The position numbers were made by a program, and so were the translations under genes. The notes under the pieces were generated by a model, which saw nothing but the letters and a program-made list of their open reading frames with translations, made no database searches and was not told where the DNA came from. Shown piece after piece: positions 10,541 through 28,359 of a stretch of 28,359 nucleotides of DNA (position 1 is the stretch's first letter; each line of letters starts with the position of its first letter). Location of the stretch: positions 1 to 28,359 of the IMG/VR virus record IMGVR_UViG_3300020187_000160; one strand, written 5' to 3'. This stretch comes from a virus.

Positions 10541-13500
10541 TCACAATTTTTTCAAATAACTCATATCACCAATTGTTATAGATTTTGTCGCGTCATTTCC
10601 AGAGAACCTGATGTATCCTTCTCTCGGGAAAATAGAACATTCTCCTGCCGCCAGAGAGTCAAGGGTTTCATCTTCTACGATAGTAGCAGCAACACCGTCT
10701 ATCTTAATATTTAGTGCTGGTTTATTTCGCGTCGAGAGAATCATAAGGTCTGAGTCGAAAGAACCATTGCCAGCAGTACCGACTCTTACATAAAAGTCTT
10801 CAGATTTAACCTTCCAATCTTTCAGGACAATCCCATTAGTAATGTTGGCGCCAGCAACTGAGTAATCTTGTTCTGTTATCTCAACAAAGGTTGCCGGACC
10901 AACGGAACCGGTTGATGTTTGTAAAGAAGTGTAAACCAATACATCGTTGATGTAGTACGTTATCGCCGTCCCAATTCGTTTGACAGAGAACGCCATTCCT
11001 CGAATAGCGTGCTGCGCCATATCTGTACTTACAGTTGTGTTATTGACAGATTCTAGGGCTTCTTTGGAGGATTGGTTGTATGCATCAATATCTTGTTGAA
11101 TATAAGCAAGCGTATATTCTCCGCTACTTACTGTGTCTACCACTACACCATTCTCGACAATATGGATATCGATATTCGGAGTATTCCACAATAGAGAACG
11201 GTCGTCACCGGTAATTGATGATCTCTCTAATCTAAATCCAAAATCGATATGGTTTAATTCAGTAGGAAACAGCGCGCCAGAATATTGGTGAGAAGACAGG
11301 CCGAACGAAGGCTTGACCCAAGCCGAACCTTCTCCAGAAGACCCTGCTTTTAAGTCAGGATAAAGAAAGGATCTGTTGTGTGCCCCGCGCTGATTACAGA
11401 TATTATACACAACTTCACAGTCAGAATTCCCTCTAAGATTGTCAGCGACTCGAAATCCTACTTTAAAATTACTACGGTAACCGCTAATGTTGCTTTGGGC
11501 ATAATTATATGTTGACAACAAAGTTCCAATCGGTTGCATAAAATGTCTCACCTGGGCTCTCATATAATTATTATAACTCGTGCTATAGGCCGTTGGGTTA
11601 GTTTCAAGCCACATGGCGCCACCGACTATGGTATCTGTTGAAACCACACCAATATCACTGTAAGCCGCGCTGCTTAATACTGGGTCGGAAGCCGTCGCTG
11701 ATGATGACGCATTCCCGCCATAACCATCGTTCAATAAAGAACGTAAGGTAACACTGATCGGCGCGTGAGTTCCATTGAGACTCAAAGTTTCTGTTTTCCC
11801 TAATGCTGTTGCACTCGGATAGATAGAAGTCGTGTCTGATTCGAACGTCCATTCTTCATTATTATCATTCCAAATACCGTGCATGATTCCAGTAGAATGA
11901 TGCTCATCCGCGACAAAGGTTTGTGTCCCAGAAAGATCGTCGAAAGAAACCTTAACGCCGTCAATTGTGGCGTCAGAAGAAGAATGCGTAGTTTTATAAG
12001 ATATTGCTGTGTCGTCGACAACCTTAACCCAATCAGAACCATTCCAAGAATACTCGTCCCAAAAGAATCTAGAGTAATAGTCGTCGGCGACATTTAAGTT
12101 TTTGTCAGGAGTACCGGCAGACTCAATCCACCATCCGTCTTGGTTTGTTGTGATAAAGGCACCAAATGCGTGAGAATAAAAACGATACGCTTGATGATCA
12201 GCGCCGGTATTAAAATTAAACGAATTGTCTTTAAACGCAAACTCGTCAGGATGAGTTACGTTGTCGAATGGGTAGAAAATAATATCTTTACTAAATTGTG
12301 ATGTGGACTGATCCCAGACATAATTCCTTCGAATAATACCCTTTACCCCATCCTTTCTGGTGAATCCAATAGGCGTATTGAGAGACCACCCATGTGCGAA
12401 CCCAAAGTAAGAAGCTGAACTCCAGCCATTCAGCGCGTCATCATTATGGAGGCTTGTATATCCACTTTGATTAACATACGAAGTGCTGTAACCGATATTG
12501 GAAACGTTTGCTGGATTTACCATCGCTGTTATAGTAGAAGAACCATATGACAGCGTTGCCGGTCTAGCGCGAGGCACACCATCATTTGTAGTTATTTTAA
12601 GCGAATCAGGGGAGTAATTAGAAAGATACCAATTGCCGTCATAACAACCCATCAACTTACGAGACCAATCAAAGGTTGTAGACGCGGGAAGCGTATTGTT
12701 AGCGTTACTCCAGAAATTACCACCTCCAGAAATTACCAAACCTGTGCGGTTTTGATAGTTAATATACCCACCAAAGTTCACGTTGGTCCTATTCGCTTGT
12801 GTTCCGTTGATCTCGTCCCACCAAGAAAAATATGTGTTGAACGATGTATTAGTAGCATAGTTATTATTGTAGCTATATGAACTACTATCATTATAAACAA
12901 TAGCCAATTCATCGTTGAGTTTATTCGCAACTAGAGCAGCCGTCGATCCCCAATACCATAACGTGTTATTTTCGTCGAAAGCGACTGCAGTGGTCGAATC
13001 AAACCCAGTCCAAGTAACACCACGGTCTGTAGATTTAACTAACGCGCCTTCAATAATTGCCCAAACGACTCTGTTTGTTCCACCAACAGAAGAACCTGTG
13101 GTAACACAGTACCCTATATTATCAGGATTTGACCCAACTGTTAAAGATCCTGCTGTTCCTGGTGTATACAACTTCACTGTTCCAGTTGTATTACCGGTGG
13201 GATCACCGACAGCAACAAACGTAGAAGTAATACCAACAGATCCGGAAACGATTTCTAAATGTTCTTCTACACTATAGTCTGAGAGTTTATAGATGAAAGT
13301 GTCGTCTGATTGAGAAACCGCTAACCTACTGCCGCCAGCATCAATACTGATAGAAGAACCAAAGCGGATATTGTCTGCGGTGTGCGTAGAATTAATTGTT
13401 TGCAACAAATTTCCCGAGATCAAATCATAAACATACACCACCCCCGCCGCATCATGCGTGTCCGATGCGGTTTCTGGTGCACCTACGATCAGCAGATTCT

Positions 13501-16060
13501 GGGATGTTGCTAGAGTTTTACCAAACTCATTGCCTGTCGGTGTCGCGTTTGGGTTTGATATAGATCTCTCTAATTGAGGATCCTCAAAACCGCCAGTAGG
13601 AGAATGGAAGACATAAACAGCACCACTAGCAGCACCCTGTGACTCATAAGGAGAGCCGATGATAGCTCTGTCGCCAGATATCGAAACAGTAAATCCGAAA
13701 CGATCTCCGGCTGAGTTTGAGCTTGTGTCTGGGTTTTGAATAGCACCAACCCAATTTGGACTCGAGACATCATCGATATTGAAAATATAACACATACCAC
13801 TAGACTGAGTTATTCCAGCACTGCTGTCTTCATCGGGTGCACTGGCTATCAAGAATGTTCCACCCGAGCTAATTGACATCGCCACGGAAGTGCCAAACGC
13901 GTCCCCAGCTGCATTGGCAACCGAGTTAGGGTTTGTGATCGTACTGTCTGGCGTAATGTTTCCAGATGTTTTTGTGTTTAAGTCATAAAGATAAACCGTC
14001 CCCGAATCATCAGGTGCACCGATCGCTAATATATGCGTGTCGCCTGTAGTTAAATCCATTGCTTGACCGAACAAAGAATCGCTACCCACAGTTCCACCAG
14101 CGGGGTCGAGAGCAGTATATAGAAAGTTCATATCATTATCATAGATATCGACTCGACACACACCAGCGCCGGTGGGATTTGAGTTGACGCAAATATAATT
14201 TCTGTTAACTGTAATATTGGTTCCGAAATCAACGCTGTCTGCAGCGGACTCAACTGTTGTTGTCGACTGTAATATGGCTGCGTCGAAACTAGTATTAAAA
14301 GACATGTTTTCGACAGTAGGTTCAACACCAACAGTCAGCATATCTTTGACAAGTGTGATCCCCTTGTCATGACTCGTGATCCAAAGGTCACCGCTAAGAT
14401 CGTCCCAAGAAAACCCACTGATTTTACCTGCTGTGGGGAAATCAGTAAATTTAACTGGATCTACGATGGACAGAACTTCTGGTTCTGTAGGCACAAAAAT
14501 ATACATGTATGATCGGCGATGGTTTAGTACAAAAATCGCACTGCGGCCATCAGAAAGAACGACATCTTCTTTAGTTGCGTACATATCCTCGTTACTGCCG
14601 TTGACACCCAACCTGTAGTGGATTCCGTCCAGCGGAGCTCTCCATTGTGTTTGAACCTCACCGAATGTGTCATTGGAGATCTCGGAAGAGTTGTTGGTAG
14701 AATCGTTAAGATACCCTGGATGATCTAAAATTTCTTCTCTATACGAGAATGTGTTATTGTTAGTGCCCGTAATAATTCTACGAGCAATGTTATATGTCGA
14801 CGAGCCCACACCACCACTAGTTGCATAATTAACACGCCAATATTCAGGTAATCTCTTATCTGGAAAAGTAGAAGCGTCAACAGCAACCGAGCCAGTTGTT
14901 TGAGCAATATCGAGCGCGTCAAAAAACGGGCCAGTCTTTGTGGGTGTATGCGCATATATATTTTGGGCTTTATTGAAACCCGCCGGCAAAATATCAAACC
15001 AAGAATGAGCAAAAGATCGGTTATTTGAATATGACCCAACACCATACATCGTGCCTCGAATTCGCCCGAGATCCGTGTCTAATAATTCCTTTGTGTATCT
15101 CGCATAATGTGTCTTGTAGAAGTAATCTAGAAAACTGGTTGTGCCTGTGCTTCTAAACTCTTGTCTGTCATGATACTGTCTTCTCCACAAATTATACTCA
15201 TCTCCCAGTGTGGGCAATGGAGTCGTGGAAGCATTGCCCATTAACTCATGAGGCTTCTTGATCCCCCCGAGCCATCCATCGCGAAGATAAGTCATATGAA
15301 AATCTCTCGCGATTGAATAATTCTTGTATCCGTGTCCAAGAGCAGACATACCAGCGAACCAAAGAGGTTTGGTTATCTCAGTCAAACCCGTTGGTTGCTC
15401 AAATACAATTTTGTAGTCGATGATTAGAGTTTCTGTTAACTCTTGGACTACAGCCGGTGAAACGGCAGTATAAGAAAGTATAGGAAGGTCAATATTTTTG
15501 CCAGTATAATCATTCCAGTCGGTAATTTTGGTGGTATCATTATGCCCATTTGTGAAGTAAGATGCCCCGAAGCTGGTATTAGTGGAAATTGATAATGCTA
15601 GAGTATTTACTGTAAACGCAGTGCCTGTGGGTGGTAGGAATTGTTGTGTTAATTTAATATAGAATTCATTGGTCACTTCATCATACGTCAACCACTCGTA
15701 TGGCAAAACGCCAGGAATAACATTTCCGAACCTCACCTCAAACCGTGGGTCTGTTTGCAGCTTGGGTTGCTCACTAGCGAGTTCGGTTTTAACTTCATCG
15801 GAAGCGATGATGAAAGAGTTACCGATCAAACTCGCGCGAGTACCGTAGGTAAAACGATCGTCGAGCCACCAACCGGAGGTGTCCCCATAGTTGTTTAACG
15901 TGTTTGTTCTAGCGTCATGATATGACGTAGCAACTCCAGTAGAAGACATCGTTCGATCAAATGCAAATTCTGTAATTCTATTTTCGATCCAGTCAGTAGT
16001 AAAAACAACCTCACCGAGTGCGTTCTGCTTTTGGATTCTATAAAGACCTTTATACATCAT
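10541..16060 (-). CDS. Giant FG-GAP/BNR-repeat virion protein, 1839 aa (putative adhesin or fibre)
   Basis: I do not recognise this protein as a whole. The N-terminal 600 residues have no motif I know. Residues about 640-960 hold a beta-propeller with FG-GAP-like blades: ILAIGAPDDSGTVYLYDL, AIIGSPYESQGAASGAVYVF and LLIVGAPETASD. Near residue 1010, STDRGVTW is a BNR/Asp-box motif. The region around 1510-1760 resembles a concanavalin/LamG-like jelly roll, with AFSVKRIGTAITYYINDVLV. No signal peptide or membrane segment is seen. It follows the related 1386-aa gene by 14 bases and starts at tandem ATG codons after CAGGAA. Its position in the late virion operon suggests a fibre or adhesin that contacts the host surface; that is inference. 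The dependence of FG-GAP blades on bound calcium is known for the family. Confidence 0.85.
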   Translation of the reverse strand: MMYKGLYRIQKQNALGEVVFTTDWIENRITEFAFDRTMSSTGVATSYHDARTNTLNNYGDTSGWWLDDRFTYGTRASLIGNSFIIASDEVKTELASEQPKLQTDPRFEVRFGNVIPGVLPYEWLTYDEVTNEFYIKLTQQFLPPTGTAFTVNTLALSISTNTSFGASYFTNGHNDTTKITDWNDYTGKNIDLPILSYTAVSPAVVQELTETLIIDYKIVFEQPTGLTEITKPLWFAGMSALGHGYKNYSIARDFHMTYLRDGWLGGIKKPHELMGNASTTPLPTLGDEYNLWRRQYHDRQEFRSTGTTSFLDYFYKTHYARYTKELLDTDLGRIRGTMYGVGSYSNNRSFAHSWFDILPAGFNKAQNIYAHTPTKTGPFFDALDIAQTTGSVAVDASTFPDKRLPEYWRVNYATSGGVGSSTYNIARRIITGTNNNTFSYREEILDHPGYLNDSTNNSSEISNDTFGEVQTQWRAPLDGIHYRLGVNGSNEDMYATKEDVVLSDGRSAIFVLNHRRSYMYIFVPTEPEVLSIVDPVKFTDFPTAGKISGFSWDDLSGDLWITSHDKGITLVKDMLTVGVEPTVENMSFNTSFDAAILQSTTTVESAADSVDFGTNITVNRNYICVNSNPTGAGVCRVDIYDNDMNFLYTALDPAGGTVGSDSLFGQAMDLTTGDTHILAIGAPDDSGTVYLYDLNTKTSGNITPDSTITNPNSVANAAGDAFGTSVAMSISSGGTFLIASAPDEDSSAGITQSSGMCYIFNIDDVSSPNWVGAIQNPDTSSNSAGDRFGFTVSISGDRAIIGSPYESQGAASGAVYVFHSPTGGFEDPQLERSISNPNATPTGNEFGKTLATSQNLLIVGAPETASDTHDAAGVVYVYDLISGNLLQTINSTHTADNIRFGSSISIDAGGSRLAVSQSDDTFIYKLSDYSVEEHLEIVSGSVGITSTFVAVGDPTGNTTGTVKLYTPGTAGSLTVGSNPDNIGYCVTTGSSVGGTNRVVWAIIEGALVKSTDRGVTWTGFDSTTAVAFDENNTLWYWGSTAALVANKLNDELAIVYNDSSSYSYNNNYATNTSFNTYFSWWDEINGTQANRTNVNFGGYINYQNRTGLVISGGGNFWSNANNTLPASTTFDWSRKLMGCYDGNWYLSNYSPDSLKITTNDGVPRARPATLSYGSSTITAMVNPANVSNIGYSTSYVNQSGYTSLHNDDALNGWSSASYFGFAHGWSLNTPIGFTRKDGVKGIIRRNYVWDQSTSQFSKDIIFYPFDNVTHPDEFAFKDNSFNFNTGADHQAYRFYSHAFGAFITTNQDGWWIESAGTPDKNLNVADDYYSRFFWDEYSWNGSDWVKVVDDTAISYKTTHSSSDATIDGVKVSFDDLSGTQTFVADEHHSTGIMHGIWNDNNEEWTFESDTTSIYPSATALGKTETLSLNGTHAPISVTLRSLLNDGYGGNASSSATASDPVLSSAAYSDIGVVSTDTIVGGAMWLETNPTAYSTSYNNYMRAQVRHFMQPIGTLLSTYNYAQSNISGYRSNFKVGFRVADNLRGNSDCEVVYNICNQRGAHNRSFLYPDLKAGSSGEGSAWVKPSFGLSSHQYSGALFPTELNHIDFGFRLERSSITGDDRSLLWNTPNIDIHIVENGVVVDTVSSGEYTLAYIQQDIDAYNQSSKEALESVNNTTVSTDMAQHAIRGMAFSVKRIGTAITYYINDVLVYTSLQTSTGSVGPATFVEITEQDYSVAGANITNGIVLKDWKVKSEDFYVRVGTAGNGSFDSDLMILSTRNKPALNIKIDGVAATIVEDETLDSLAAGECSIFPREGYIRFSGNDATKSITIGDMSYLKKL

Positions 16061-16074
16061 TAATTCCTGTAATT

Positions 16075-19000
16075 CTAATTCCTTGTTAGAGTTAAGCTCG
16101 CACCATTTATTCCAATACCACCTGTAATGGGAACAGTGGTTGAATTTGAAGAGCTTTCTGGGGTATATTTATCTAGCTGCAATGCGCTATATTTTGCGAT
16201 ACCTGCGCCGGTCAGTGGCACAGTCGATTGTTGCTTGTTATATTCTACGCCATATCTTAAGATAGTGAATGATGGCTCAAAGACAGTATTGAGCGCGCCG
16301 GTCAATGGCGATATCGCACTCGTGACAACAGACTCAGGAACATATCTCGTAAGACTCAAGCTTGAAGTTTCTTGTCCGTCTTCTCCAATTTCTGGTGTTA
16401 AGCTGGTGTCTATAATATTGACAGAGCTTGATAAACTGCCTGTTGGCGACCCAGTACTATCTGTAGCGTCTAGAGTAATAACTAATGTCTTGTCTCCATC
16501 AGTGTCATTATCCGCTGTTGCTAAAATCGACAAAGTTGCTGTGTTGGAAGTTATTGAGAGATCGTTCGACAACGAGGATAAGTTAATATCCCCCGCCGTT
16601 ACTCCTGTGATAGTGTAACCAACAGTCGTTCCATCATCAACGTTCGAAGTATTTATTGTCAGCGTTGCTGTATCTGAATTGTTTTCTTCGATCGAAAGAA
16701 CATCAAATGTCATTGAATCATACGAAGGAGTCAAACTAGTGTCTTGTATCACAACAGAAACGCTTGGCGAACCTGTTCCAAACCCGTCGCTGTCAGTGTC
16801 CGCAAGCGTCAATACAAGCGTCTCTTCGCCTTCAGTTATTCTATCGGTCAATACGTTGAATGAAAGTGTCGCGGCGCTGGAGAGCACCGTTAGAGTCCCT
16901 GTCAACGAGCTAAGGCTTATGTCGTCAACAGTTACGCCAGTAATTGTATAGTCAACCGTAGAAGCGTCTGGTACATTAATGGTGTTTAATGTAAGAGTAA
17001 CAAGCTCGTTGGCTTCTGTGACAGTAGCAACATCAAACGCTATATCATATGCGACGGAAACATTGACAACAAGTATCGTCGTTGACGCAACAATGTCACC
17101 GAGTATGCCGTCTTTTCGCAGATTAATCGTATATGTTTCGTCTTGACTGATCGTCTCAAAAACGCTGACTAGACCGAATGAAGCAGTGCTTGAACCAAAG
17201 TTGCCGGTTGGAGTAAACGAACCAGAAACAGATTCAAATATACCTGTTGCTGATTCAATGGTCCAGTAGAGAGATTCTAGTTCTTTGTTCTCTATAGAGA
17301 CATTTACTGTAGTACTGCCACCTTCTGTAATGCTTTCTGAGGCGTTAACGAAGGATATGGTTTCTGGGCCATAAGATGTGTCAAGGACGTTGACTTCTAC
17401 AGAATCTATTATTGGACCAATCGTACTTGTTTTTCTTAGGTTTAATGTAAATGTTTCACCACGGTCGTTTCCAGTGTATTCTGTTAATGCGTCTTCAATT
17501 GTTTGTAATGTTATTACGCCAAACGCATTAGCAAAATCGCCGATTAATGAAACTGTTCCTGATATCGCCAAAAAGTCAGAATCGGCAGAACCTTCTAAAG
17601 TCCAGTACAAATCATCCGCTTCAAAATTCGCAAAGTTCCAGTTTTGTGTCTCTACGAAGATAGAAGAATCTGTCACACCTTCGCCGATTGAAATTGTTGT
17701 TAGATTGTTTCCTGCTCCGTTGGTAATAAGAATACTTTCAGCGCCGTAAGATGTATCGTCAACAGTTAAAGGAAGAAAGGCTACAACGGGAGAAGTCTTG
17801 CTGTTTGCTCTTATTGATAACTGTCTCGTTTCGCCACCTAATTCAGTAAGAGAATCTGCGATAGTTTCAATAGAAAAAGACCCTGTCGAAGTCTCAAACG
17901 AACCCGACATTTCGAATTGGCCGTCTATGCTTTGAAAGTCTGCTGTTGTGGCGTCATCTAATGTCCAGTAGTATGTTCCTACTGGTGTACTCTGCCCCAA
18001 CATATTGACCACAACACTTGATCCCTCGAACAAAGTGAGTTCGGTAATTATTGTTACTCCTGGTTCGTCTAAGAATTTGATATCAACTGGAGTAGTAGAA
18101 GAATCAATCAAAGTTAATGTTAGGCTGTCTACTAACTCAAGCGCGCCGTTAACATCTTTCTTCAGTGTTAAAGTATAAGTTTGATCTTCTTCTGTGGTCA
18201 GGTCGGCAATTGGTTGCAAGAGAAATGACCCAGTAGAATATTCGAAATCACCCGATGTTTGAACTATTCCTGAAGTTGCGGTAAAATCAGAAATCGTCGC
18301 AGATTCTAATTTCCACCAGAGAGTCGCTGGTTCCCAATTATTCGCCTCAACATGCACAAAGAATTCATCTCCTTCATTCATAGTAAGGTATAACACCCCA
18401 CTAGTATCAGAATTCATTAATCGAATTCTTTCCATATTAGCGTAATCAATAAAAAGATAATTCGCTTCATGTATATGAATTTCATTTGTTCTATTATTTG
18501 AAGTTACAAATGCGCCACCATCCTTTGTCATCCAAATGTTTCCATCCGGATATAAATCATACGCTGCACCGTCAGTGTCGTAGAAAGTATCAACCTGTTC
18601 CCAAGTTTCTCGTTGGCGTTTGAATAACTTTACTGAGCCAAAGTTTCTTTCTGAATTCGGGCCAGCATCTTCTCTTACTGCAGAAACAAGCCAAGAACCG
18701 TCATGATCAAGATAGAAGGAAGAGCCAAAACGATCAGAAAGAACTCCTGGCTCAGAAACATTTTCTGCGTATTCATCATGGATTAATTTAGCGTCAAAAA
18801 CATATGAGCCAGCATAAAATTTATATACAAACAGAGAACCATGAGCGGCGTCATATGATATCGGATTTAATGACGCGTCATCCGGCGCGTTGATCACTAA
18901 GAAACTACCATCACCACTAAATTCTACTTGAGTTCCCGTAAATCCAACTCTCGGCGCGCCTTGTGCTACTAAAATAGTTTGTTCTAAAGACCACGTAGCA

Positions 19001-20235
19001 CCCACTCTATTGAATACATATGTCGCCCCATTACCAAAAACAGGACTAGACTCTAGTCGAGGTATAGAAGAAACCGCGAGTTTGTTTCCGGTTTCTGTAA
19101 TGGAAATGCTTTGTCCAAAAGCGGGGTAGCCTAGTGCCATACCGTCCGGATTTGCTATTTTTTCTTGCAGCGACCAAACGCCCGATTCGTCTTTGTTGTA
19201 AATATAAACAGAACCTAAATTTGCGTTACCGTTAGACAAATCATTTCGAGCAGCGACAACTACATAGTCTCCGTCTTGGTTTATCCTAACTTCTCGCCCA
19301 AACCATCCGTTATCGCTGAAGGTCGCGTCGTGAGTCCATGTATCAACATCATTGAGACAGCTTCTGGAATAAATGTGTATGTAACCCAATTCTGTAGAGT
19401 CGTCAGATTCGGAAGGTTGAGCAACCACAAGATAGTAACCATTCTCGCTGATTGAAACGCTTTCGCCGAAACCTGGAAGTTCGGTCTCTAGAGGACTATA
19501 AAGTGTTGTGTTTAATTCCCAGTTCGACGGTTGGTTCAAATAATCTGCACCATAATGACTGTTACGCTTCATTATTTGTACAGCGCGGCGCGGGGGAACT
19601 GCGTTGCCATCGCTAGAAGAAACCAACCAAATACCGTTACGGCTAAACGCGATGTGATCCCCAAAGGAAATATCGTTAACAACTGGAGAAGTTATCTCAA
19701 CTTTATTGTGTGTAGACCAATCGACATTGTATGAGACCATTGTAGTGTCAGCCAACAGGTATGTGTTGTCAGCTGAAATTATGGTGTCGTCGACAGTAAG
19801 GAATCCGCCGATAGAAGAATCTACTACGAGAGTGATTTCGAATAATGTCTTTCTTTTAGAAAAGGTTTCAGTAACAGAGTAAACAATCTGTTCTGTGCCG
19901 ATAAAATTTGGTCGTGGGCGGTATGTCAAGACACCAGTGTCGATATCTAAATCATAATCGCCATTATCTACATTCGCGCTTTCTACACAAAACTTAACGG
20001 GTTCGCCTGAAGAAATGTATGTTCCTTCTAACAGGTTTAATACGTTTACTTGGTTGGTGTACATCTGAATGTTACCGGATGGCGCGGTAAGTTTCCAATA
20101 ATTGTCTATGTCTCTTTTTGCAATTGGAACAAGCTGTCGGTCGACATAGTTGCCATCAACCCGCGCAGCTTCGCCTGGATTGTAATTAAGAGTTCCGTCA
20201 AATGACAGTAATGGGGTATTCTTCTTATCGCTCAT
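16075..20235 (-). CDS. Giant FG-GAP propeller plus Calx-beta repeat virion protein, 1386 aa
   Basis: This large modular protein has no clear named relative. Residues about 165-540 form a propeller of FG-GAP-like blades (FGESVSISENGYYLVVAQPS, FGQSISITETGNKLAVSSIP, SFLVINAPDDAS). Residues about 600-1275 hold about seven Calx-beta-like repeats of two types: one with YWTLE.....DF and TYTLTLKKD, the other with VDYTITGVTVDDISLSSLTG and TEGEETLVLTL. The last 96 residues are a separate threefold repeat. The second Calx-beta type closely resembles the domain in the DUF285 gene at the left edge. A late promoter ends 6 bases before the ATG, and no ribosome site is visible. Cotranscription with the 1839-aa gene is likely. 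I infer an extended, calcium-dependent surface fibre or adhesin. Confidence 0.87.
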   Translation of the reverse strand: MSDKKNTPLLSFDGTLNYNPGEAARVDGNYVDRQLVPIAKRDIDNYWKLTAPSGNIQMYTNQVNVLNLLEGTYISSGEPVKFCVESANVDNGDYDLDIDTGVLTYRPRPNFIGTEQIVYSVTETFSKRKTLFEITLVVDSSIGGFLTVDDTIISADNTYLLADTTMVSYNVDWSTHNKVEITSPVVNDISFGDHIAFSRNGIWLVSSSDGNAVPPRRAVQIMKRNSHYGADYLNQPSNWELNTTLYSPLETELPGFGESVSISENGYYLVVAQPSESDDSTELGYIHIYSRSCLNDVDTWTHDATFSDNGWFGREVRINQDGDYVVVAARNDLSNGNANLGSVYIYNKDESGVWSLQEKIANPDGMALGYPAFGQSISITETGNKLAVSSIPRLESSPVFGNGATYVFNRVGATWSLEQTILVAQGAPRVGFTGTQVEFSGDGSFLVINAPDDASLNPISYDAAHGSLFVYKFYAGSYVFDAKLIHDEYAENVSEPGVLSDRFGSSFYLDHDGSWLVSAVREDAGPNSERNFGSVKLFKRQRETWEQVDTFYDTDGAAYDLYPDGNIWMTKDGGAFVTSNNRTNEIHIHEANYLFIDYANMERIRLMNSDTSGVLYLTMNEGDEFFVHVEANNWEPATLWWKLESATISDFTATSGIVQTSGDFEYSTGSFLLQPIADLTTEEDQTYTLTLKKDVNGALELVDSLTLTLIDSSTTPVDIKFLDEPGVTIITELTLFEGSSVVVNMLGQSTPVGTYYWTLDDATTADFQSIDGQFEMSGSFETSTGSFSIETIADSLTELGGETRQLSIRANSKTSPVVAFLPLTVDDTSYGAESILITNGAGNNLTTISIGEGVTDSSIFVETQNWNFANFEADDLYWTLEGSADSDFLAISGTVSLIGDFANAFGVITLQTIEDALTEYTGNDRGETFTLNLRKTSTIGPIIDSVEVNVLDTSYGPETISFVNASESITEGGSTTVNVSIENKELESLYWTIESATGIFESVSGSFTPTGNFGSSTASFGLVSVFETISQDETYTINLRKDGILGDIVASTTILVVNVSVAYDIAFDVATVTEANELVTLTLNTINVPDASTVDYTITGVTVDDISLSSLTGTLTVLSSAATLSFNVLTDRITEGEETLVLTLADTDSDGFGTGSPSVSVVIQDTSLTPSYDSMTFDVLSIEENNSDTATLTINTSNVDDGTTVGYTITGVTAGDINLSSLSNDLSITSNTATLSILATADNDTDGDKTLVITLDATDSTGSPTGSLSSSVNIIDTSLTPEIGEDGQETSSLSLTRYVPESVVTSAISPLTGALNTVFEPSFTILRYGVEYNKQQSTVPLTGAGIAKYSALQLDKYTPESSSNSTTVPITGGIGINGASLTLTRN
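16078..16365 (-). repeat. Threefold ~29-residue repeat at the C-terminus of the 1386-aa protein
   Basis: The protein segments begin SLSLTRYVPES, SFTILRYGVEY and ALQLDKYTPES, each followed by a V/ISPLTG-, VPLTG- or VPITG-type turn with a Gly-rich tail. The final SLTLTRN starts a fourth unit. The DNA copies have diverged, so this is an old protein-level repeat. Confidence 0.75.
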
Positions 20236-20992: not shown

Positions 20993-21964
20993 TTAATTAA
21001 TAGTTAATGTTATGGTAAATGTTTCAGTAACACCCATACCAACTTCAACCGCAACTTGGAACGTTACGATTCCTGTATAAGAATTATCCGGAGTATATAC
21101 CCAAACCCCTGTTTGAGAATCGATCGTAGCAGACCCGTATAATGGATCCGAAGATATAGCAAACGCGTCACCAGTAATAGGTTCTATGGTATTATCTATA
21201 ATGAGAGTTCCAGTAATATCTTCACCAGAACGTGAACCAGACCCAGTGTTTCCTCTCGGGTCATTCGCACTCATAGCAAAATATGATAGCAACTTTGTCT
21301 CATCGTCGTAATCATAATAACTGACTTCAACATCATTAATAACGCTTGACGCGTCGTTAATGCGTTTATACAAATTGATCTTCATATCAAAATCTAATTG
21401 ATACACGATTGTTCTTCTCGCGTCCAATGAACCTTCATAATCATCTGAGAATGTTATGGCTTCTAATTTAATCGGGACGTCTTCTTTAACGTCAGGAAAA
21501 TCGTCAAGAGGCTTCATTGTGACTGTATACTGTGGAGTAAAATATGGCAAAATTTGTTCTACAACCTGCAACGCGTCGTCTTGATTCTTTGCGTATACGC
21601 TAAGTTGAAATTGTATGTTATAAGGAACAGGAGTGTACATCTTATATGCTGTTGAAGCAGAAGACGCCATTGCCATCGAATTCATTTTGGGTAGTTGGCG
21701 GGAAGGATCGTAATTCATCGCCAATATTTCGAAAGACATTCTCGGTAGCTTGATTGCTACTTGCCTTTCTTGATTCTCGCCATTGTCCATTTGAGCAATG
21801 CGCTCTAAGAAATTACGACTGGGGCCATAGCTGAGAGGAACCTTCACTTGGCTCAAAGTCCCACCACCCGAGTTTTTTCTAATAACATTAATGTTATTGA
21901 ATAAAGATCCGAACACTGCAACAGATTTGCGTATTCTTTGATGGTAGAACCAAGAGCCAAACAT
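20993..21964 (-). CDS. gp15: Tail completion and sheath stabiliser protein (gp15-like) with added Ig-like C-terminus
   Basis: Residues 1 to about 205 match T4 gp15, the hexameric cap of the tail that joins it to the neck. The start MFGSWFYHQRIRKSVAVFGS, then VKVPLSYGPSRNFLERI, LPRMSFEILAMNYDP and VVEQILPYFTPQYTVTMKP all fit the family. T4 gp15 has 272 residues. Here, residues about 215-323 contain a Gly/Ser-rich linker (RGNTGSGSRSGED) and a segment, YGSATIDSQTGVWVYTPD, typical of VCBS/cadherin-type Ig-like domains, followed by strands ending in TFTITLTIN. This extra domain is not part of T4 gp15. The ribosome site is AAAGG. The gene lies between the two accessory blocks. Confidence 0.94.
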   Translation of the reverse strand: MFGSWFYHQRIRKSVAVFGSLFNNINVIRKNSGGGTLSQVKVPLSYGPSRNFLERIAQMDNGENQERQVAIKLPRMSFEILAMNYDPSRQLPKMNSMAMASSASTAYKMYTPVPYNIQFQLSVYAKNQDDALQVVEQILPYFTPQYTVTMKPLDDFPDVKEDVPIKLEAITFSDDYEGSLDARRTIVYQLDFDMKINLYKRINDASSVINDVEVSYYDYDDETKLLSYFAMSANDPRGNTGSGSRSGEDITGTLIIDNTIEPITGDAFAISSDPLYGSATIDSQTGVWVYTPDNSYTGIVTFQVAVEVGMGVTETFTITLTIN

Positions 21965-22228: not shown

Positions 22229-25200
22229 TTATGCGTCAACAGCGTGACGAACGACTTTGTGTACCATTGCATCAGCAGTTGCAGCAGTTACTGACAACTC
22301 AACGTTACCAGAAACGATTGCAGCTGAGAAATCAGCTTCAGCAGAATCACCAGTGTAGAGAGTACCGAATTCAGTGACGTGAGTATTAGTCCCATCATGA
22401 ATCAACAGAATTTCTGTTGACTGGTACTTGCTATCAGTTGTGTTGGTCGTCTGTACAGTGAACTTGGCTGAACGGAAATCCGCAGCAGCAAAGGTATCAA
22501 GGACAGTCGGAGTAACAGATGAAGTAGATACTGAACCGGTCTTGGTAGCTGTACCAGCCATTACCAATGAAGTCGCAGAAAGATTGAAAGAATCGTCTGA
22601 ATCTTTGAATCGAATACGATCAACACCGTCAGTGCGCATTACAACGTCTTTAGCGAACGCGTCAGCGTAGTAGCCTATAGCGATACCTTGAGCACCTTGA
22701 ACTGTAGCGTACCCACCAATTGCGACACCATATGATCCAGCAGATGTTGCAGAGTAACCAATACCGATTGAACCACTTGAAGATGAGTTTAATGATTTCG
22801 CTTTCGCACCAACCATTACACTCTTATCAGAAAGATCCTGGGTATAAGCACCAAACAACGTTGAATACTGCCCATCGGCGTCAGCTTTAAAGCCAACAAC
22901 TGTAGAGTATTCAAAGGCCGTAGTCGAATTGTAACCAATAAGGACACTACCCGCAGCGGCGGAGGGGTTGTTCGTCTTGGAACCGATGGTGACCTGTTTG
23001 GGTGCATATGAATAAGCCATATGACCAACACTAATTGTATAGTCACCCTCAACCCACGCGTAATATCCAACAGCTGTGCCGTATTTAAAGTCTTCTTCGA
23101 CTTTAGCCTTTGCTCCGACAGCGACTGACTTATACTCTGCGTATGCAGAAGCACCTATCGCAGTGCCGTATTGGCCTACCGTTCTAGCGTCATAACCAAT
23201 AGCGACACCGTGTGATGCACTAACCCTAGCGCTGCCGCCAACGAGGGTGCTATAATCTCCTTGAACATTGGAAAATGTTCCTATTGCAATAGCATACCTA
23301 CCTGTAACGCCGTTCCAATAACCCGACGCGATAGCGTAATCGGATGAACCATATATCGTAGCGCCATAACCCAAAGACGTACAAAAACTAGACTCAGAAC
23401 TAGACCATCCACCAACGCAGGTATTGTGACTTTGTTGGGCTGGAGTATATCGGTAACCAGCTTGATACCCAATAGATACGGTATATGTGTTTGCGGCGTA
23501 ACCTGAAGCACCAGCCGAATGACCCGACGCATTCCAACCGATAGCGACAGATTGTTTATCTTTGGGTTCCGTCAGAGTTGACGCTGTTGAACCACCAGCG
23601 TAAGGGCCCACGAATACTGAGCTGCCTGCTGAGTCAGAAGCCAACAAGGATACCATACCTAAGCCAAGACCAAAGTCAAAACCGTTGTCTGACACCGTCT
23701 TGTTGTAACTAATAATGCGTGAATAGTTGTATCCAGCTGCTGCGCTTGTACCAAGTGTGATGTTACCGATAGCGGTATAAAGGTTACCAGCATGAGTACC
23801 TACGTCACCGTAGTAAGAAGTGATTGAACCGTTATACGCATAGATTTCACCACTCTTTGAGTAGATGTTACCTGCATCAGTTTCGAAACCAACTGAACCG
23901 TAACCAGGATCAGCCGCGCCAGCAACAACCTTATTGATGAAAATATCAGCAGATGAATCTACAGACATTACACCAGCAGTGAAGTCGAGACCGTGTCCAG
24001 CTTGGATACCAGCACCTGCTGAAGCAGAGATAATACCAGTTGCAGGATCATAAGAGATTGAACCAGTACCAGAAACAGCGTTCTTGGCGTCTGAGTCTGC
24101 GCGAGCAGTCGTGTAGTACAAGTTGTCGCCTTCTGATAAATCAGTAGTCGACTTAGCAACAAAGGCTGCATCGATATCAGAATCAACTCGAGCCAATGTG
24201 TAGTACTTGTTCGTGCCTTCTGACAAGTCAGAAGTAGAGCTGGCAGTTAAGTCTGAATCAAACCCTTGGTAAATACCAGTAAGAGTTGTACCAGAAATAG
24301 CACCGGCAGAAGTTACACTAGAAACTTCGATCGCACCAGCTACAAGAGCAGCTGCTGAGAAGGTAGGATCAGAAATATCAACAACGTTAGTTGATTCTAA
24401 GTCTTGAGTCAAGCCTTGGAACAAGTGGTATTTTTGAGTCGTCGCGTCACGGAATAGACCCGTGTGCATTTGATCAATACCATCAGAGTAGTGAGATACG
24501 AAACCCATGTCCAAAACGTCAGAAGCATCGTTGCTGTCTGCGAGGTGGAGGAGAGGATCGTTGATTGTTACAGTAGTTGAATTAACTGTAGTAGTTGTAC
24601 CGTTAACTGTTAAGTCGCCAGCCAATACCAAGTTGTTAAATTCAACGTCATCGCCAGAACCAAGTGCCTGACCTGCAGAGATAACACCAGTAGCTGCATC
24701 ATAAGAGATACCAGTACCAGCAGACATCAAGCCACGTACTTCAGCGTCAGTTCTTTCTGTGAAAGAAACTACACCAGTAACCGAGTCGTAAGACAGATCA
24801 CCACCAGCTGATAAATGAGCGCGAACCTCAGAAGCTGAAGGTCCAGTAACTGTGATAACACCAGTAGCTGCATCGTAAGAAGCAGAGCCATCGCCGCCGC
24901 CATCAGTGAGACTGATTAAACCGCGAACTTCAGCGTCAGTTCTTTCTGTGAAAGAAACTACACCAGTAGCTGGGTCGTAAGCGAGATCGCCGCCTGCAGA
25001 CAAATGTGCACGTACTTCAGCGGCAGAAGGGCCAGTGAACGTAAATGCACCAGTAGCTGCATCGTAACTTAAAGAACCGTCGCCACCATTATCAACTGCT
25101 GATAAAGAAGCGCGGACTTCAGAGGCCGAAGGGCCAGTATATGTTAAAACACCAGTTGAAGCGTTGTACGAAAGTGCACCATCGCCGCCAGTGTCGTTAA

Positions 25201-25426
25201 CAGAAAGAACAGGAATTGGAAGTTCAGTTACAGCAGATACGCGACCTTTCGCGTCAAGTGTAACAGAAACGCGTTTGGCAGAATCGCCATACGTTCCAGC
25301 TGTGCCAACGTCAGGTAACGTATTACCACTGATCGGAGCTACAAGCTCCCCCTGTGCGTTTACGATTAACTGGCCGCCAGCCTCAAGCCCGCTCTTTAGA
25401 ACGAAATTGTGGTTAGATTGAGACAT
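22229..25426 (-). CDS. Fibre/adhesin-like structural protein with YadA-head-like repeats, 1065 aa
   Basis: The N-terminal 255 residues carry repeated SYDAATGVLT....GPSASEVRAHLSA units, including a 63-residue duplicated block. Residues about 260-300 contain LTVNGTTTTVNSTTVTI then DPLLHLAD, a linker common in structural proteins of marine T4-like phages. DLSEGTNKYYT and DLSEGDNLYYTTARADSD repeats follow. Residues about 625-930 consist of short repeats of the form AIGYxAxxxGxYGxAIG, matching the left-handed beta-roll of YadA-type adhesin heads. The last 107 residues are homologous to the C-terminus of the neighbouring 431-aa protein. No signal peptide is seen. A strong GGAGGA ribosome site precedes the start. 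I infer a trimeric fibre on the virion that contacts the host. Confidence 0.88.
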   Translation of the reverse strand: MSQSNHNFVLKSGLEAGGQLIVNAQGELVAPISGNTLPDVGTAGTYGDSAKRVSVTLDAKGRVSAVTELPIPVLSVNDTGGDGALSYNASTGVLTYTGPSASEVRASLSAVDNGGDGSLSYDAATGAFTFTGPSAAEVRAHLSAGGDLAYDPATGVVSFTERTDAEVRGLISLTDGGGDGSASYDAATGVITVTGPSASEVRAHLSAGGDLSYDSVTGVVSFTERTDAEVRGLMSAGTGISYDAATGVISAGQALGSGDDVEFNNLVLAGDLTVNGTTTTVNSTTVTINDPLLHLADSNDASDVLDMGFVSHYSDGIDQMHTGLFRDATTQKYHLFQGLTQDLESTNVVDISDPTFSAAALVAGAIEVSSVTSAGAISGTTLTGIYQGFDSDLTASSTSDLSEGTNKYYTLARVDSDIDAAFVAKSTTDLSEGDNLYYTTARADSDAKNAVSGTGSISYDPATGIISASAGAGIQAGHGLDFTAGVMSVDSSADIFINKVVAGAADPGYGSVGFETDAGNIYSKSGEIYAYNGSITSYYGDVGTHAGNLYTAIGNITLGTSAAAGYNYSRIISYNKTVSDNGFDFGLGLGMVSLLASDSAGSSVFVGPYAGGSTASTLTEPKDKQSVAIGWNASGHSAGASGYAANTYTVSIGYQAGYRYTPAQQSHNTCVGGWSSSESSFCTSLGYGATIYGSSDYAIASGYWNGVTGRYAIAIGTFSNVQGDYSTLVGGSARVSASHGVAIGYDARTVGQYGTAIGASAYAEYKSVAVGAKAKVEEDFKYGTAVGYYAWVEGDYTISVGHMAYSYAPKQVTIGSKTNNPSAAAGSVLIGYNSTTAFEYSTVVGFKADADGQYSTLFGAYTQDLSDKSVMVGAKAKSLNSSSSGSIGIGYSATSAGSYGVAIGGYATVQGAQGIAIGYYADAFAKDVVMRTDGVDRIRFKDSDDSFNLSATSLVMAGTATKTGSVSTSSVTPTVLDTFAAADFRSAKFTVQTTNTTDSKYQSTEILLIHDGTNTHVTEFGTLYTGDSAEADFSAAIVSGNVELSVTAATADAMVHKVVRHAVDA
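24738..24968 (-). repeat. 189-bp duplicated coding block in the 1065-aa gene
   Basis: Identical 42-base stretches occur at 24738-24779 and 24927-24968. They encode the same SFTERTDAEVRG segment 63 residues apart. The intervening SYDAATG and SEVRAHLSAGGDL units are also repeated further out, up to about 25170. The repeats are in frame and close at DNA level. Confidence 0.85.
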
Positions 25427-25482
25427 AATTGTCCTCCATTTGTTTATAGAATATTACAAAGGAATCACAAAAGAGTAAGAAA

Positions 25483-26778
25483 TCAAATATCAATTGATTG
25501 TCTTATCACCTTAAAAGTCATATTGTTAGACGTAGACGGGGTACATAATAATCGAACTTCGCCGCCGAAAACATCGGCAGAGAAACTTGCTTCTTCATCC
25601 TGTCCAGTATATATACTACCGAATTCAGTAATGTGAGTGTCCGTATTGTCTTGAAGCAGAAGAATTTCTGATGTGTGAAAGGTAGATTGTGTGTGATTTT
25701 CTACCTGTAGAGTATATCTAGCCGATCTGTATTTTGAGACCGGAAATGTATCTAGAGTTGTTACTGATACATCGTTTGTTTGTGTTACGATAGTGTCGAT
25801 GGTCATTTGACCTGAAATTTTAACACTACTTGTAAAAAAAGTATTTTGGCTTGAGTCAATCAACATCCCGACATTACCTTCGCCATCAGATAAAACAACT
25901 TGGTTGCTTTTCCCTATGATGTCCGTTCCATCGTTACTGCCAATTATGACATTATTGTTTCCGAGAGTGAGCGCCGAACCAGCAGAACCTCCTAGTGCTA
26001 GGTTGTTTGATCCTGTCGCCAGCCGTAGAGCGTCTTTACCCACGGCAGTATTATCTGTTCCGATTTGATTGGAATACAATGAGCGGTAGCCAACGCTGAC
26101 ATTATCAGAACCGCTGACATTAGATCGTAAAGATTCGGTGCCTGTCGAAGTATTTCTGCTACCACCAACATTACTCAGTTGAGACTGAGTTCCAAGCGCA
26201 GTATTCATTTCACCATTGAAATTAGACTTTAACGCTTTAGACCCTAGCCCAACATTATACTGCCCAACAAGATTAGGGTTTTGTAACGATTCTCGACCGA
26301 CTGCAACATTAGTAGCGATCCCGTTACTCCCCATAGACAGCATGTGCTGCCCGTTTAATTTGTACGAGCGAGTATTGGACCCACCACCAAGACCACCCAT
26401 CTCAATAGAACCAGAATCGAGAAGGTTATAACTTCCTTGTTTGTGATATACTTCACCGATATGCCAATTCAAGTCGGGTAAATCTGTGAGATCGTTATAA
26501 CTACCCGAAAGAGCTGATGCTGGCAATTGGTTAATGATAACAAGCACGTCAGTTAAAGACCCCGAAGAATCTGTTAACTGAGAGATGTCTGAAGGGATAA
26601 ACGGTTTATTAATTAAATCATCATAATCTCCGGAAGTAGCAACGTCTGCAAAATCACCGCCACCAGTGGCTGTATACAGTTCTCCAAAGTTCTCATTAAC
26701 CTTGGAGAACGCGTCTCGTAAAGTGTCGCCTGTTCTGTCGTTGACATTTGACCCGATGTATATTAATTGCTTTGGCAT
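25483..26778 (-). CDS. Fibre/adhesin-like structural protein, 431 aa
   Basis: The N-terminus NDRTGDTLRDAFSKVNENF (about 11-29) is a motif frequent at the start of virion and fibre proteins of marine T4-like phages. It probably anchors the protein to the particle. Residues about 136-280 hold six or more 22-residue repeats such as NVSVGYRSLYSNQIGTDN, again of the YadA-like beta-roll type. Residues about 325-431 form a C-terminal domain also found in the 1065-aa neighbour (both have LDTF, then SEILL..D or TEILL..D, then THITEFGS or THVTEFGT). Its late promoter overlaps the end of the sulfotransferase gene. The ribosome site is weak (AGGT). It is likely a virion fibre subunit. Its function is inferred. 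Confidence 0.87.
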   Translation of the reverse strand: MPKQLIYIGSNVNDRTGDTLRDAFSKVNENFGELYTATGGGDFADVATSGDYDDLINKPFIPSDISQLTDSSGSLTDVLVIINQLPASALSGSYNDLTDLPDLNWHIGEVYHKQGSYNLLDSGSIEMGGLGGGSNTRSYKLNGQHMLSMGSNGIATNVAVGRESLQNPNLVGQYNVGLGSKALKSNFNGEMNTALGTQSQLSNVGGSRNTSTGTESLRSNVSGSDNVSVGYRSLYSNQIGTDNTAVGKDALRLATGSNNLALGGSAGSALTLGNNNVIIGSNDGTDIIGKSNQVVLSDGEGNVGMLIDSSQNTFFTSSVKISGQMTIDTIVTQTNDVSVTTLDTFPVSKYRSARYTLQVENHTQSTFHTSEILLLQDNTDTHITEFGSIYTGQDEEASFSADVFGGEVRLLCTPSTSNNMTFKVIRQSIDI

Positions 26779-26806: not shown

Positions 26807-27826
26807 TTATTTATATAAGTTTGCCAAACTTTGGTTTTCTAATTGTGAAAGATCTGTCAAAGAAGTTTGTGGTTGCGGTTGCTGCGCCTGTTGAGGAGCC
26901 GGTTGTGCTGGTGGGTTATTAGTCTCCAGTGTTTTAGCGTAAGTTGAAGCTTCCGCAGTTACTCTCTCAGATTGTTGGATTTGTTCAGGTGTTCTATTGT
27001 CGATCCCAACCCAATTCAAACGTTGTTTGGGAAAATCTGGGCTTCTCCAGAACGATCGGTTTGCGTATTTGTTCCAAACCATTGGAGACATAACGGTAGG
27101 ACGTTCTACATACTCGACCTTCTGTTTCACATCGTGAAGACCATCTAGTCCGAGCTCGGCGTCATACTCGTCATATGTTTTCGCAACATTATTATAATCA
27201 TGAGCATAGTATTCTTCTCCTAAGAAGTCGTATACTAATCGCATACAACCTTCAGGATCTTGCGCCAGAGCTTCATATTCCAAATACATGATATGTTCTC
27301 TGTTTTCTGGGCAGTTAAGTGAATGTTGAACCAGCGACAGTGGCCCAGTAACAAACCCGCTTTGCGCGCCCATTTCACCCATTAAGAATGCTGCGCGTTC
27401 ATTTGACCCAGGCCAGTTTTGTTGACCGAAAATTGCTTTAAGAGTTAATGGGTTTTTGTTGTTCAACTTTTCGACCGAATCGAGAATCCAAGGGATGTGT
27501 CTGAGACAAACAATCATTTTGAATTCTGGGAATAATTTTTTCAGCCTTCCTGTGGCACCTGTCCAAGCGCGGTTCGTATTGAAAACTACTTCTGGAGCGT
27601 CTTTGTACTGCACTTCAAACAACGACCGAACCATTTCTAATCTGGTTTCTTCGGTGACTGTAGTTCGCCCACCCAACGCTTGACTATCGTTGAAAAAGAT
27701 GGAATCACTAAACCCTAGCATAGAATCCGTGATTCCTGTTTGAAATTTAGGGTTTTGATCTAAAATCGAACTCAAAAGGGTTGAACCTGAACGTGGTAGT
27801 CCAGAAATAAAATTATACTTCCTCAT
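26807..27826 (-). CDS. PAPS-dependent sulfotransferase
   Basis: This 339-residue protein transfers sulfate from 3'-phosphoadenosine-5'-phosphosulfate (PAPS) to an unknown acceptor. The N-terminus contains GLPRSGSTLL (residues 9-18), the 5'-phosphosulfate-binding loop of the sulfotransferase superfamily. CLRHIPWILDS (about 105-115) fits the 3'-phosphate-binding segment, with Arg about 107 and Ser about 115. The last 50 residues are Gln/Pro-rich (PAQPAPQQAQQPQPQ) and look like a linker or a virion-tethering tail; sulfotransferases do not need one. It has a GAGG ribosome site and lies 16 bases after gp14, before two fibre-like genes. I infer that it may sulfate virion glycans or host surface sugars. 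No PAPS synthesis gene is seen, so the host would supply PAPS. Confidence 0.92.
   Translation of the reverse strand: MRKYNFISGLPRSGSTLLSSILDQNPKFQTGITDSMLGFSDSIFFNDSQALGGRTTVTEETRLEMVRSLFEVQYKDAPEVVFNTNRAWTGATGRLKKLFPEFKMIVCLRHIPWILDSVEKLNNKNPLTLKAIFGQQNWPGSNERAAFLMGEMGAQSGFVTGPLSLVQHSLNCPENREHIMYLEYEALAQDPEGCMRLVYDFLGEEYYAHDYNNVAKTYDEYDAELGLDGLHDVKQKVEYVERPTVMSPMVWNKYANRSFWRSPDFPKQRLNWVGIDNRTPEQIQQSERVTAEASTYAKTLETNNPPAQPAPQQAQQPQPQTSLTDLSQLENQSLANLYK
26808..26815 (-). promoter_or_regulatory. T4-type late promoter overlapping the sulfotransferase stop
   Basis: The minus strand reads TATAAATA within the last codons (Tyr-Lys-stop) of the sulfotransferase gene. A start near 26802 would give a leader of about 24 nt before the ATG at 26778. 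It would drive the 431-aa and probably the 1065-aa gene. Confidence 0.75.
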
Positions 27827-27841
27827 GTAATATACCTCAAA

Positions 27842-28359
27842 TTAAAATGTATCGCCGAATGGATTCGACTCTGTAAAATCTATGAATGAATCGCCAATGG
27901 TGTCAAAGGTATCATTCTGGCTTGTTCGCTGAGTATTTATTAGTTCTTCTATGACGGTTATGTTGCCAGTAGCAGAAGAAACGTCAGCCGAGATTTGAGA
28001 GCCATTAACAACAAACTCGTGATACTCTCCGTCATCTGCGCCAATGTGGGCCAAATAAAGTTTAGACGCGCTGCTGTCCCAATTGACAACCTCGCCCTGC
28101 ATTGATGTATTATTGGTCAACGCTTGTGTAACAACCTCACCAACTTGGAAATCGCCGACTACCGAATCTAACGTCAAGACGTGTTGATAAGCAAACGCTT
28201 TTTCGACATCGTCAATACTTTCAATACCAGTATCGAAATTCTCATCGTTATACTCAAACAGCTCGCAGGTCATTCTGAACACTGGTAAGTTTTTCAGCTG
28301 GTAGAATGGAGTTTCGTCCTGGACGAGTGTTATTTGGAATATGGAGTTTGATAAGGGCA
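27842..28359 (-). CDS. gp14: Neck protein (gp14-like), 5' truncated
   Basis: The open frame runs from the right edge of the window to a TAA at 27842, giving the last 172 residues or so; the N-terminus lies outside. Reading upstream of the internal ATG at 28282 continues as DETPFYQLKNLPVFRMTCE and then LFEYNDENFDTG, which is the conserved core of T4-type gp14. Gp14 forms part of the neck collar between head and tail. T4 gp14 has 256 residues. The C-terminal region, from about 28150, resembles a small beta domain (VVGDFQVGEVVTQ, QGEVVNWDSSASKLYL). It is followed directly by the sulfotransferase gene, whereas T4 has gene 15 next. Confidence 0.9.
   Translation of the reverse strand, partial: PLSNSIFQITLVQDETPFYQLKNLPVFRMTCELFEYNDENFDTGIESIDDVEKAFAYQHVLTLDSVVGDFQVGEVVTQALTNNTSMQGEVVNWDSSASKLYLAHIGADDGEYHEFVVNGSQISADVSSATGNITVIEELINTQRTSQNDTFDTIGDSFIDFTESNPFGDTF

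Follow-up and report, generated by a model that had tools for sequence, protein, structure and literature searches.

A predicted PAPS-dependent sulfotransferase between the neck and fibre genes of a T4-like phage, with a possible role in sulfation of the attachment apparatus

Analysis of a 28-kb virus record from a T4-like phage of bacteria (IMG/VR record IMGVR_UViG_3300020187_000160; the window, i.e. the whole stretch analysed, is 28,359 nucleotides long) revealed between the neck and fibre genes a gene that securely qualifies as a predicted PAPS-dependent sulfotransferase of the Sulfotransfer_3 class, with both PAPS-binding motifs intact. The gene (26807..27826, minus strand) starts with ATG and encodes 339 aa, internal stops being absent. 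From the gene company that the family keeps, we tentatively propose, at slightly less than an even chance, that the enzyme sulfates the phage's own attachment apparatus during assembly, and we take this as the best reading, ahead of sulfation of a host surface glycan. The contexts in phages and in bacteria have attachment in common (fibres, lectin-like proteins, giant surface proteins and possibly decorating glycans), hence this choice of acceptor. An active PAPS-dependent sulfotransferase would be made late, from a unit in which its gene comes third after gp13 and gp14, and would draw on the cell's own PAPS; sulfate would be added to a tyrosine or an attached glycan of a fibre or neck protein while the virion is assembled, and the added negative charge would tune host binding. 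Sulfotransferases annotated in GenBank phages are already known, and their biological function remains unclear according to the accessible part of a 2023 paper (PMC10580990); new here is the context argument across phage and bacterial loci.

The initial annotation had recognized a sulfotransferase by its clear GLPRSGSTLL motif, and the domain searches agree: Pfam Sulfotransfer_3 (PF13469; E 1.1e-13, 52.3 bits against a cut-off of 27) and Sulfotransfer_1 (E 2.7e-8, 34 bits against a cut-off of 22) both match approximately residues 6-209 of the 339-aa protein, and the motif lies at residues 9-18 (27773..27802, minus strand). An alignment of 62 sequences further revealed the second PAPS-binding motif, R109-x7-S117 (residues 109-117; 27476..27502, minus strand), which the initial annotation had not named; G9, L10, P11, R12, G14, S15, R109 and S117 are invariant in 62/62 aligned sequences. 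A domain above the curated cut-off together with the 5' PAPS motif and the 3' Arg-Ser motif assigns the protein to Sulfotransfer_3. It also matches phrog_27463, a family of unannotated function (E 4.1e-32), and falls outside NoeE (NF052394), the sole NCBIfam family listed for it, as it scores 19.1 bits against a cut-off of 500 over residues 5-28 only. The PAPS loop is not lost in another assembly: the independent contig L002 (98% identity) keeps the motif intact. The GC content of the gene is 0.423 and that of the window 0.424. Sequence and model together support the enzyme class and the intact cofactor site, the activity itself being predicted.

The AlphaFold2 model that we used, built with 62 sequences, has a mean pLDDT of 84.3 and drops below 50 at residues 279-286 and 312-339; a single-sequence model (pLDDT 34.1) was useless and was dropped. 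Fold comparison of residues 1-278 placed seven TPST entries on top (Z 19.1-19.5 over 231-240 residues at 15-18% identity), and the model belongs with the TPST fold at Z 19.5 over 239 residues, the next family reaching 16.4. The sulfotransferase domains of CurM (16.4) and of an olefin synthase (15.6) follow, then heparan sulfate enzymes (~14), with the SULT small-molecule sulfotransferases lower in the list (Z ~11-13 versus 19.5 for TPST). A family profile search matched TPST1 (E 2.7e-9), and the seven hits that it gave below 1e-4 are all TPSTs. In the profile alignment R12, R86, R109, S117 and Y184 meet the Arg, Lys, Arg, Ser and Tyr of TPST, respectively, and the catalytic Glu of TPST, presumably its catalytic base, aligns within a region of low identity with T33, a position held by S or T in 61/62 sequences. 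By this profile alignment, which is not a residue-level structure comparison, the protein lacks the catalytic Glu that follows the first PAPS motif in TPST. Glu is given as the base in general form in the available text of PMC6637879. Conserved residues of the phage protein that are candidates for a catalytic base are S33/D34, E119, H209, D222 and H231. On model and alignment, the sulfotransferase is predicted to be built like TPST, and the residue defining TPST chemistry is not matched in the profile alignment. Given that few solved structures lie near this family, the nearest fold need not mean the same acceptor.

The window genes from gp23 to gp14 run in one direction. At the portal, the phage shares 70% identity with C48C1, a phage listed under Kyanoviridae, and ~50% with Methylophilales, Pelagibacter and cyanobacterial phages. 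The placement of the sulfotransferase between gp14 and two fibre-like genes, as initially described, was confirmed. gp14 (27842..28357, minus strand, truncated where the window ends; a match to phrog_460, head closure Hc2, at E 2.9e-22) is separated from the sulfotransferase by 15 nt, after which come fibre A (25483..26778, minus strand; 431 aa, with a T4_gp9_10_N start, PF07880 25.2 bits against a cut-off of 25, and phrog tail and structural matches), fibre B (22229..25426, minus strand; 1065 aa, with YadA_head repeats, PF05658 E 3e-12) and the tail sheath stabiliser gp15 (20993..21964, minus strand; T4-gp15_tss, PF16724 E 3.5e-69, residues 6-223), which carries an extra Ig-like C-terminal domain (Big_9, residues 247-321). 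L002 has the same order, gp13, gp14, sulfotransferase, fibre A, fibre B and gp15, and this together with its intact motif indicates that the locus is not an assembly accident. In C48C1, gp14 and gp15 are adjacent, and no relative of the protein was found, C48C1 being absent from the nine phage records that match at E 1e-5; the sulfotransferase and the two fibres thus form an insertion relative to C48C1. The terminase small subunit gene of C48C1 lies directly after its gp15, which at 258 aa is too short for the full Big_9 domain of the window gp15. By eye, fibres A and B (window 22229-26778) seem to have a similar C-terminal region of ~100 residues, which in fibre A also matches S-SM2 tail fibres. 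In the window, by contrast with C48C1, gp16 and gp15 are separated by gp53 and two giant genes of 1839 and 1386 aa (window 10541-20235). Upstream of gp13, L002 encodes a 408-aa protein (L002:3-1229) with repeated PAVTPTP units and an intein/Hint-like end (TIGR01443, 17.3 bits against a cut-off of 15.6), features that suggest a fibre or adhesin able to cleave itself.

The window contains five copies of the motif TATAAATA, which we take to be the core of T4-type late promoters, every copy on the coding strand and four of the five in intergenic gaps (1.31 expected; five reached by 1/100 shuffles). The remaining copy (26808..26815, minus strand) lies upstream of fibre A, where it overlaps the stop codon of the sulfotransferase gene, and is a possible late promoter of fibre A. 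A motif search of the window placed no copy in the 15 nt that separate the sulfotransferase from gp14, and L002 has one just upstream of gp13. From gene spacing and promoter positions, gp13, gp14 and the sulfotransferase seem to be one late cotranscribed unit.

Relatives of the sulfotransferase are encoded by 588/600 candidate stretches of the viral collection. The 88 phage loci that we compared, namely the best 80 of the 588, the window, L002 and six GenBank loci, are samples and not a census; L001 (the window itself) and L003-L004 (C48C1, gene absent) were left out of the phage counts. Fibre-type genes were those encoding Lcl_C, RCC1-repeat or phrog_6002-like proteins or relatives of the window fibres, and the neighbour labels came from clusters first found beside sulfotransferase genes, which biases the near counts upward. 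Fibre or glycan genes lie within three genes of the sulfotransferase in 80/88 loci, fibre-type genes in 60/88 and glycan genes in 38/88, and in 20/88 the retrieved stretch includes neck genes of the gp13-gp15 group (all among the matches listed). After 70% clustering, again among the matches listed, either class lies within three genes in 21/28, glycan genes in 17 and fibre genes in 10; glycan genes fill 38/160 slots at distance 1-3, 20/217 at 4-8 and 2/142 beyond, and fibre genes 14/160 at distance 1-3 versus 15/217 at 4-8. Counted by gene slots, glycan genes are the only class clearly enriched near the sulfotransferase after clustering. A simple rule of fibre linkage is weakened, the raw 60/88 (among the matches listed) being inflated by one clade. 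That clade has the layout Lcl_C gene, 143-aa gene, sulfotransferase and APS kinase; a second layout consists of RCC1 fibres, a TPR/glycosyltransferase-like gene, the sulfotransferase and often a glycosyltransferase. The third, found in most nearest kin of the window protein, runs from GT9 through a NodU carbamoyltransferase and the sulfotransferase to glycosyltransferases; in the nearest phage relatives the NodU-like carbamoyltransferase (PF16861 E 1.5e-60) lies directly before the sulfotransferase. In three single-cell marine virus contigs (AG-345; L008, L009, L010) the sulfotransferase lies among large repeat proteins, with 2OG-Fe(II) oxygenase-like and sugar-enzyme-like genes also nearby, and that of L010 has an altered PAPS loop, LPRTCSS.

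An APS-kinase-like gene is present on 55/88 stretches, directly downstream of the sulfotransferase in 38, and directly downstream in 2/28 after 70% clustering (all among the matches listed). The kinase passes Pfam APS_kinase (38.5 bits, cut-off 21.1), and its short versions match apsK at ~E 1e-15, under the NCBIfam equivalog cut-off. Starting from 80 kinase loci among the matches listed, we found the sulfotransferase adjacent in 16, near in 12 and lacking in 52. There is no fixed link between the kinase and the sulfotransferase, and where adjacent the kinase comes mostly from one clade. The family is common in phages with and without a sulfotransferase; in L073:7031-7816 and relatives the APS-kinase-like domain is joined to an NMNAT-like nucleotidyltransferase, and shorter kinase-only versions exist. 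We do not claim a phage-made PAPS synthetase, as the C-terminal nucleotidyltransferase of the long kinases best matches nicotinamide-nucleotide adenylyltransferases and not ATP sulfurylase. RecA chains that topped the list of matches had no matched stretch passing alone and were set aside.

On the bacterial side, we analyzed 79 distinct loci (L169-L247) from the best 80 matches, likewise a sample and not a census. An open frame of at least 1000 aa lies directly beside the sulfotransferase in 34/79 loci among the matches listed; frames of this size fill 24/77 slots at +1 and 10/76 at -1, versus 10/337 at distances 3-6 (among the matches listed). Domains were scanned in 24/34 giant neighbours, the unscanned ones being L174, L184, L232 and L237, which are on the opposite strand and perhaps spurious frames, and the Bradyrhizobium loci L185, L193, L199, L203, L207 and L215, which looked like near-duplicates. 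The 24 scanned giants carry DUF4347 in 10 cases, ESPR, a type V secretion signal, in 9 and Big_12 in 8 (among the matches listed), and others have further bacterial Ig-like, PATR or TPS domains; judged by these domains, they are for the most part secreted surface proteins of giant size. A quickly built tree, which omits one short row and has long branches for the GenBank phage rows, explains the phage label with two changes and places the window inside an all-phage clade of 19 rows (SH-aLRT 99). The giant-neighbour label needs 19 changes (gains and losses pooled), indicating an association that is dispersed among the bacterial rows and not due to one inheritance. Bacterial contig L171 falls among the phages on this tree and may be phage DNA.

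These contexts bear on several explanations. Sulfation of a host surface glycan (LPS or capsule) would alter the receptor and keep sister phages and released virions from re-adsorbing; we regard this as possible, yet appreciably less probable than the reading we favour. It would account for the glycosyltransferases and the NodU-like carbamoyltransferase of the nearest relatives and for glycan genes being the clearest enrichment after clustering (among the matches listed), and polysaccharide sulfotransferase structures do come after the TPSTs in the fold list; however, the window gene lies in a late neck/fibre unit, a glycosyltransferase is absent from the 28 kb, exclusion by surface change might be expected earlier in infection, and the bacterial relatives adjoin giant secreted proteins. 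The place among neck and fibre genes and the recurrent glycan/fibre company also argue against an auxiliary metabolic gene for small-molecule sulfation or sulfur metabolism, as does the lower rank of SULTs (Z ~11-13 against 19.5 for TPST). We consider such a role improbable, even though enzymes of this fold that are unrelated to TPST have small-molecule acceptors and viral sulfotransferases are listed as metabolic genes in the available portions of PMC12285232 and PMC13079714.

The Gln/Pro-rich C-terminal tail had been described as 50 residues long and as a possible tether to the particle. An enriched stretch is indeed present; it covers ~23 residues (303-325; 26852..26920, minus strand), with 57% Q+P versus 9% in residues 1-279, and is preceded in the model by a helix (280-302) and followed by a short helix of low confidence (326-335). 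The function as a tether was not supported: among the 62 sequences the tail occurs only in the window phage and its 98% sister L002, the next closest relatives end in tails that are shorter and dissimilar, and the segment is predicted to be disordered. A search of the viral collection with the tail peptide, one of six patterns, found no relative beyond L002 among the whole-protein relatives that the scan kept, unrelated proteins with a like tail being outside its reach. A flexible linker ending in a possible short helix (residues 303-339) and the adjoining structural genes would suit a virion-borne enzyme acting on the host surface at adsorption; with the tail limited to the two phages, and PAPS being a cytoplasmic donor that an extracellular enzyme would be without, we deem this very unlikely. 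Equally remote is a passenger gene without useful activity: the frame is intact in two contigs, the family-invariant residues are kept and the GC content resembles that of the neighbours, although the TPST Glu aligns with T33 with no other base identified in the profile alignment, and C48C1 has no relative of the gene.

Sulfation of the phage's own attachment apparatus is consistent with the invariant PAPS motifs, the TPST-nearest fold, the insertion together with two fibres, the late-unit spacing, the fibre/glycan company and APS-kinase-like genes in phages, and the giant proteins beside bacterial relatives. It is weakened by the fall of the clustered fibre counts to 10/28 (among the matches listed), fibre genes being hardly commoner close by, by the alignment of the TPST Glu with T33, by the small number of acidic tyrosines in fibres A and B, by kinases often found without a sulfotransferase and by the location of the S-SKS1, S-SRM01 and S-SCSM1 genes away from neck genes. 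Of the initial suggestion that virion or host-surface structures are modified, the attachment-related acceptor is favoured by context, and protein is not told apart from glycan, nor virion from host. Acidic tyrosines (net acidity of at least 3) make up 2/13 in fibre A, 0/59 in fibre B and 4/19 in gp15, where SYYDYDDE (residues 215-222; 21299..21322, minus strand), between the T4-like core and the extra Ig-like domain, holds speculative acceptor tyrosines; since eleven proteins were scanned, this cluster is a lead only. SYYDYDDE is not in the gp15 of C48C1; for gp15 proteins outside the window the comparison was visual and covered one segment. A bolder reading, which we hold doubtful, is that the phage's own fibre or neck tyrosines or glycans are sulfated, with gp15 SYYDYDDE as candidate, by a member of a wider adhesin-linked sulfotransferase family. 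Just as doubtfully, one lineage of this family would pair with bacterial giant adhesins, with phage attachment/glycan cassettes and sometimes with an APS-kinase-like gene. We found no report of phage tyrosine sulfation or of an adhesin-linked sulfotransferase family in titles and abstract openings, a search that left subscription journals mostly outside. Phage sulfotransferases are common but unexplained, and the fibre/glycan cassettes of phages, together with the giant surface proteins beside bacterial relatives, name a testable acceptor class. If the proposal is true, the virion made by a bacterial virus carries sulfate, and chemical modification would add to host recognition a layer that is invisible in sequence alone.

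Among known systems, TPST1 and TPST2 are the closest solved fold to the phage protein and its sole profile matches below E 1e-4; TPSTs are Golgi enzymes, whereas the phage protein is cytosolic and without a secretory signal. The initial assignment also agrees with annotated PF13469-type relatives in other phages: the sulfotransferases of cyanophages S-SKS1, S-SRM01 and S-SCSM1 have the same domain and keep both PAPS motifs at 23-26% identity over the alignment, but they are without the extended tail and lie outside the gp13-gp15 block, that of S-SRM01 adjoining a glycosyltransferase and a nucleotide-sugar epimerase. Glycan decoration by NodH/NoeE and NodU has a parallel in the NodU-like gene and glycosyltransferases that adjoin the nearest phage relatives, the window itself being without NodU. 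Virions that carry glycans have precedents among mycobacteriophages, Che8 and Rita being cited in the accessible text of PMC11256854. The bacterial tyrosine sulfotransferase RaxST of Xanthomonas, modelled on TPST2, has the active-site residues Arg-11 and Ser-118, whose residue numbers correspond to R12 and S117 of the phage protein, and it acts on a small secreted peptide within a raxX-raxSTAB cluster (PMC6637879, accessible part), genes that the window is without. RaxST nevertheless illustrates that a bacterial enzyme of TPST-like build can sulfate tyrosine (PMC4216712 and PMC6637879, in the parts available).
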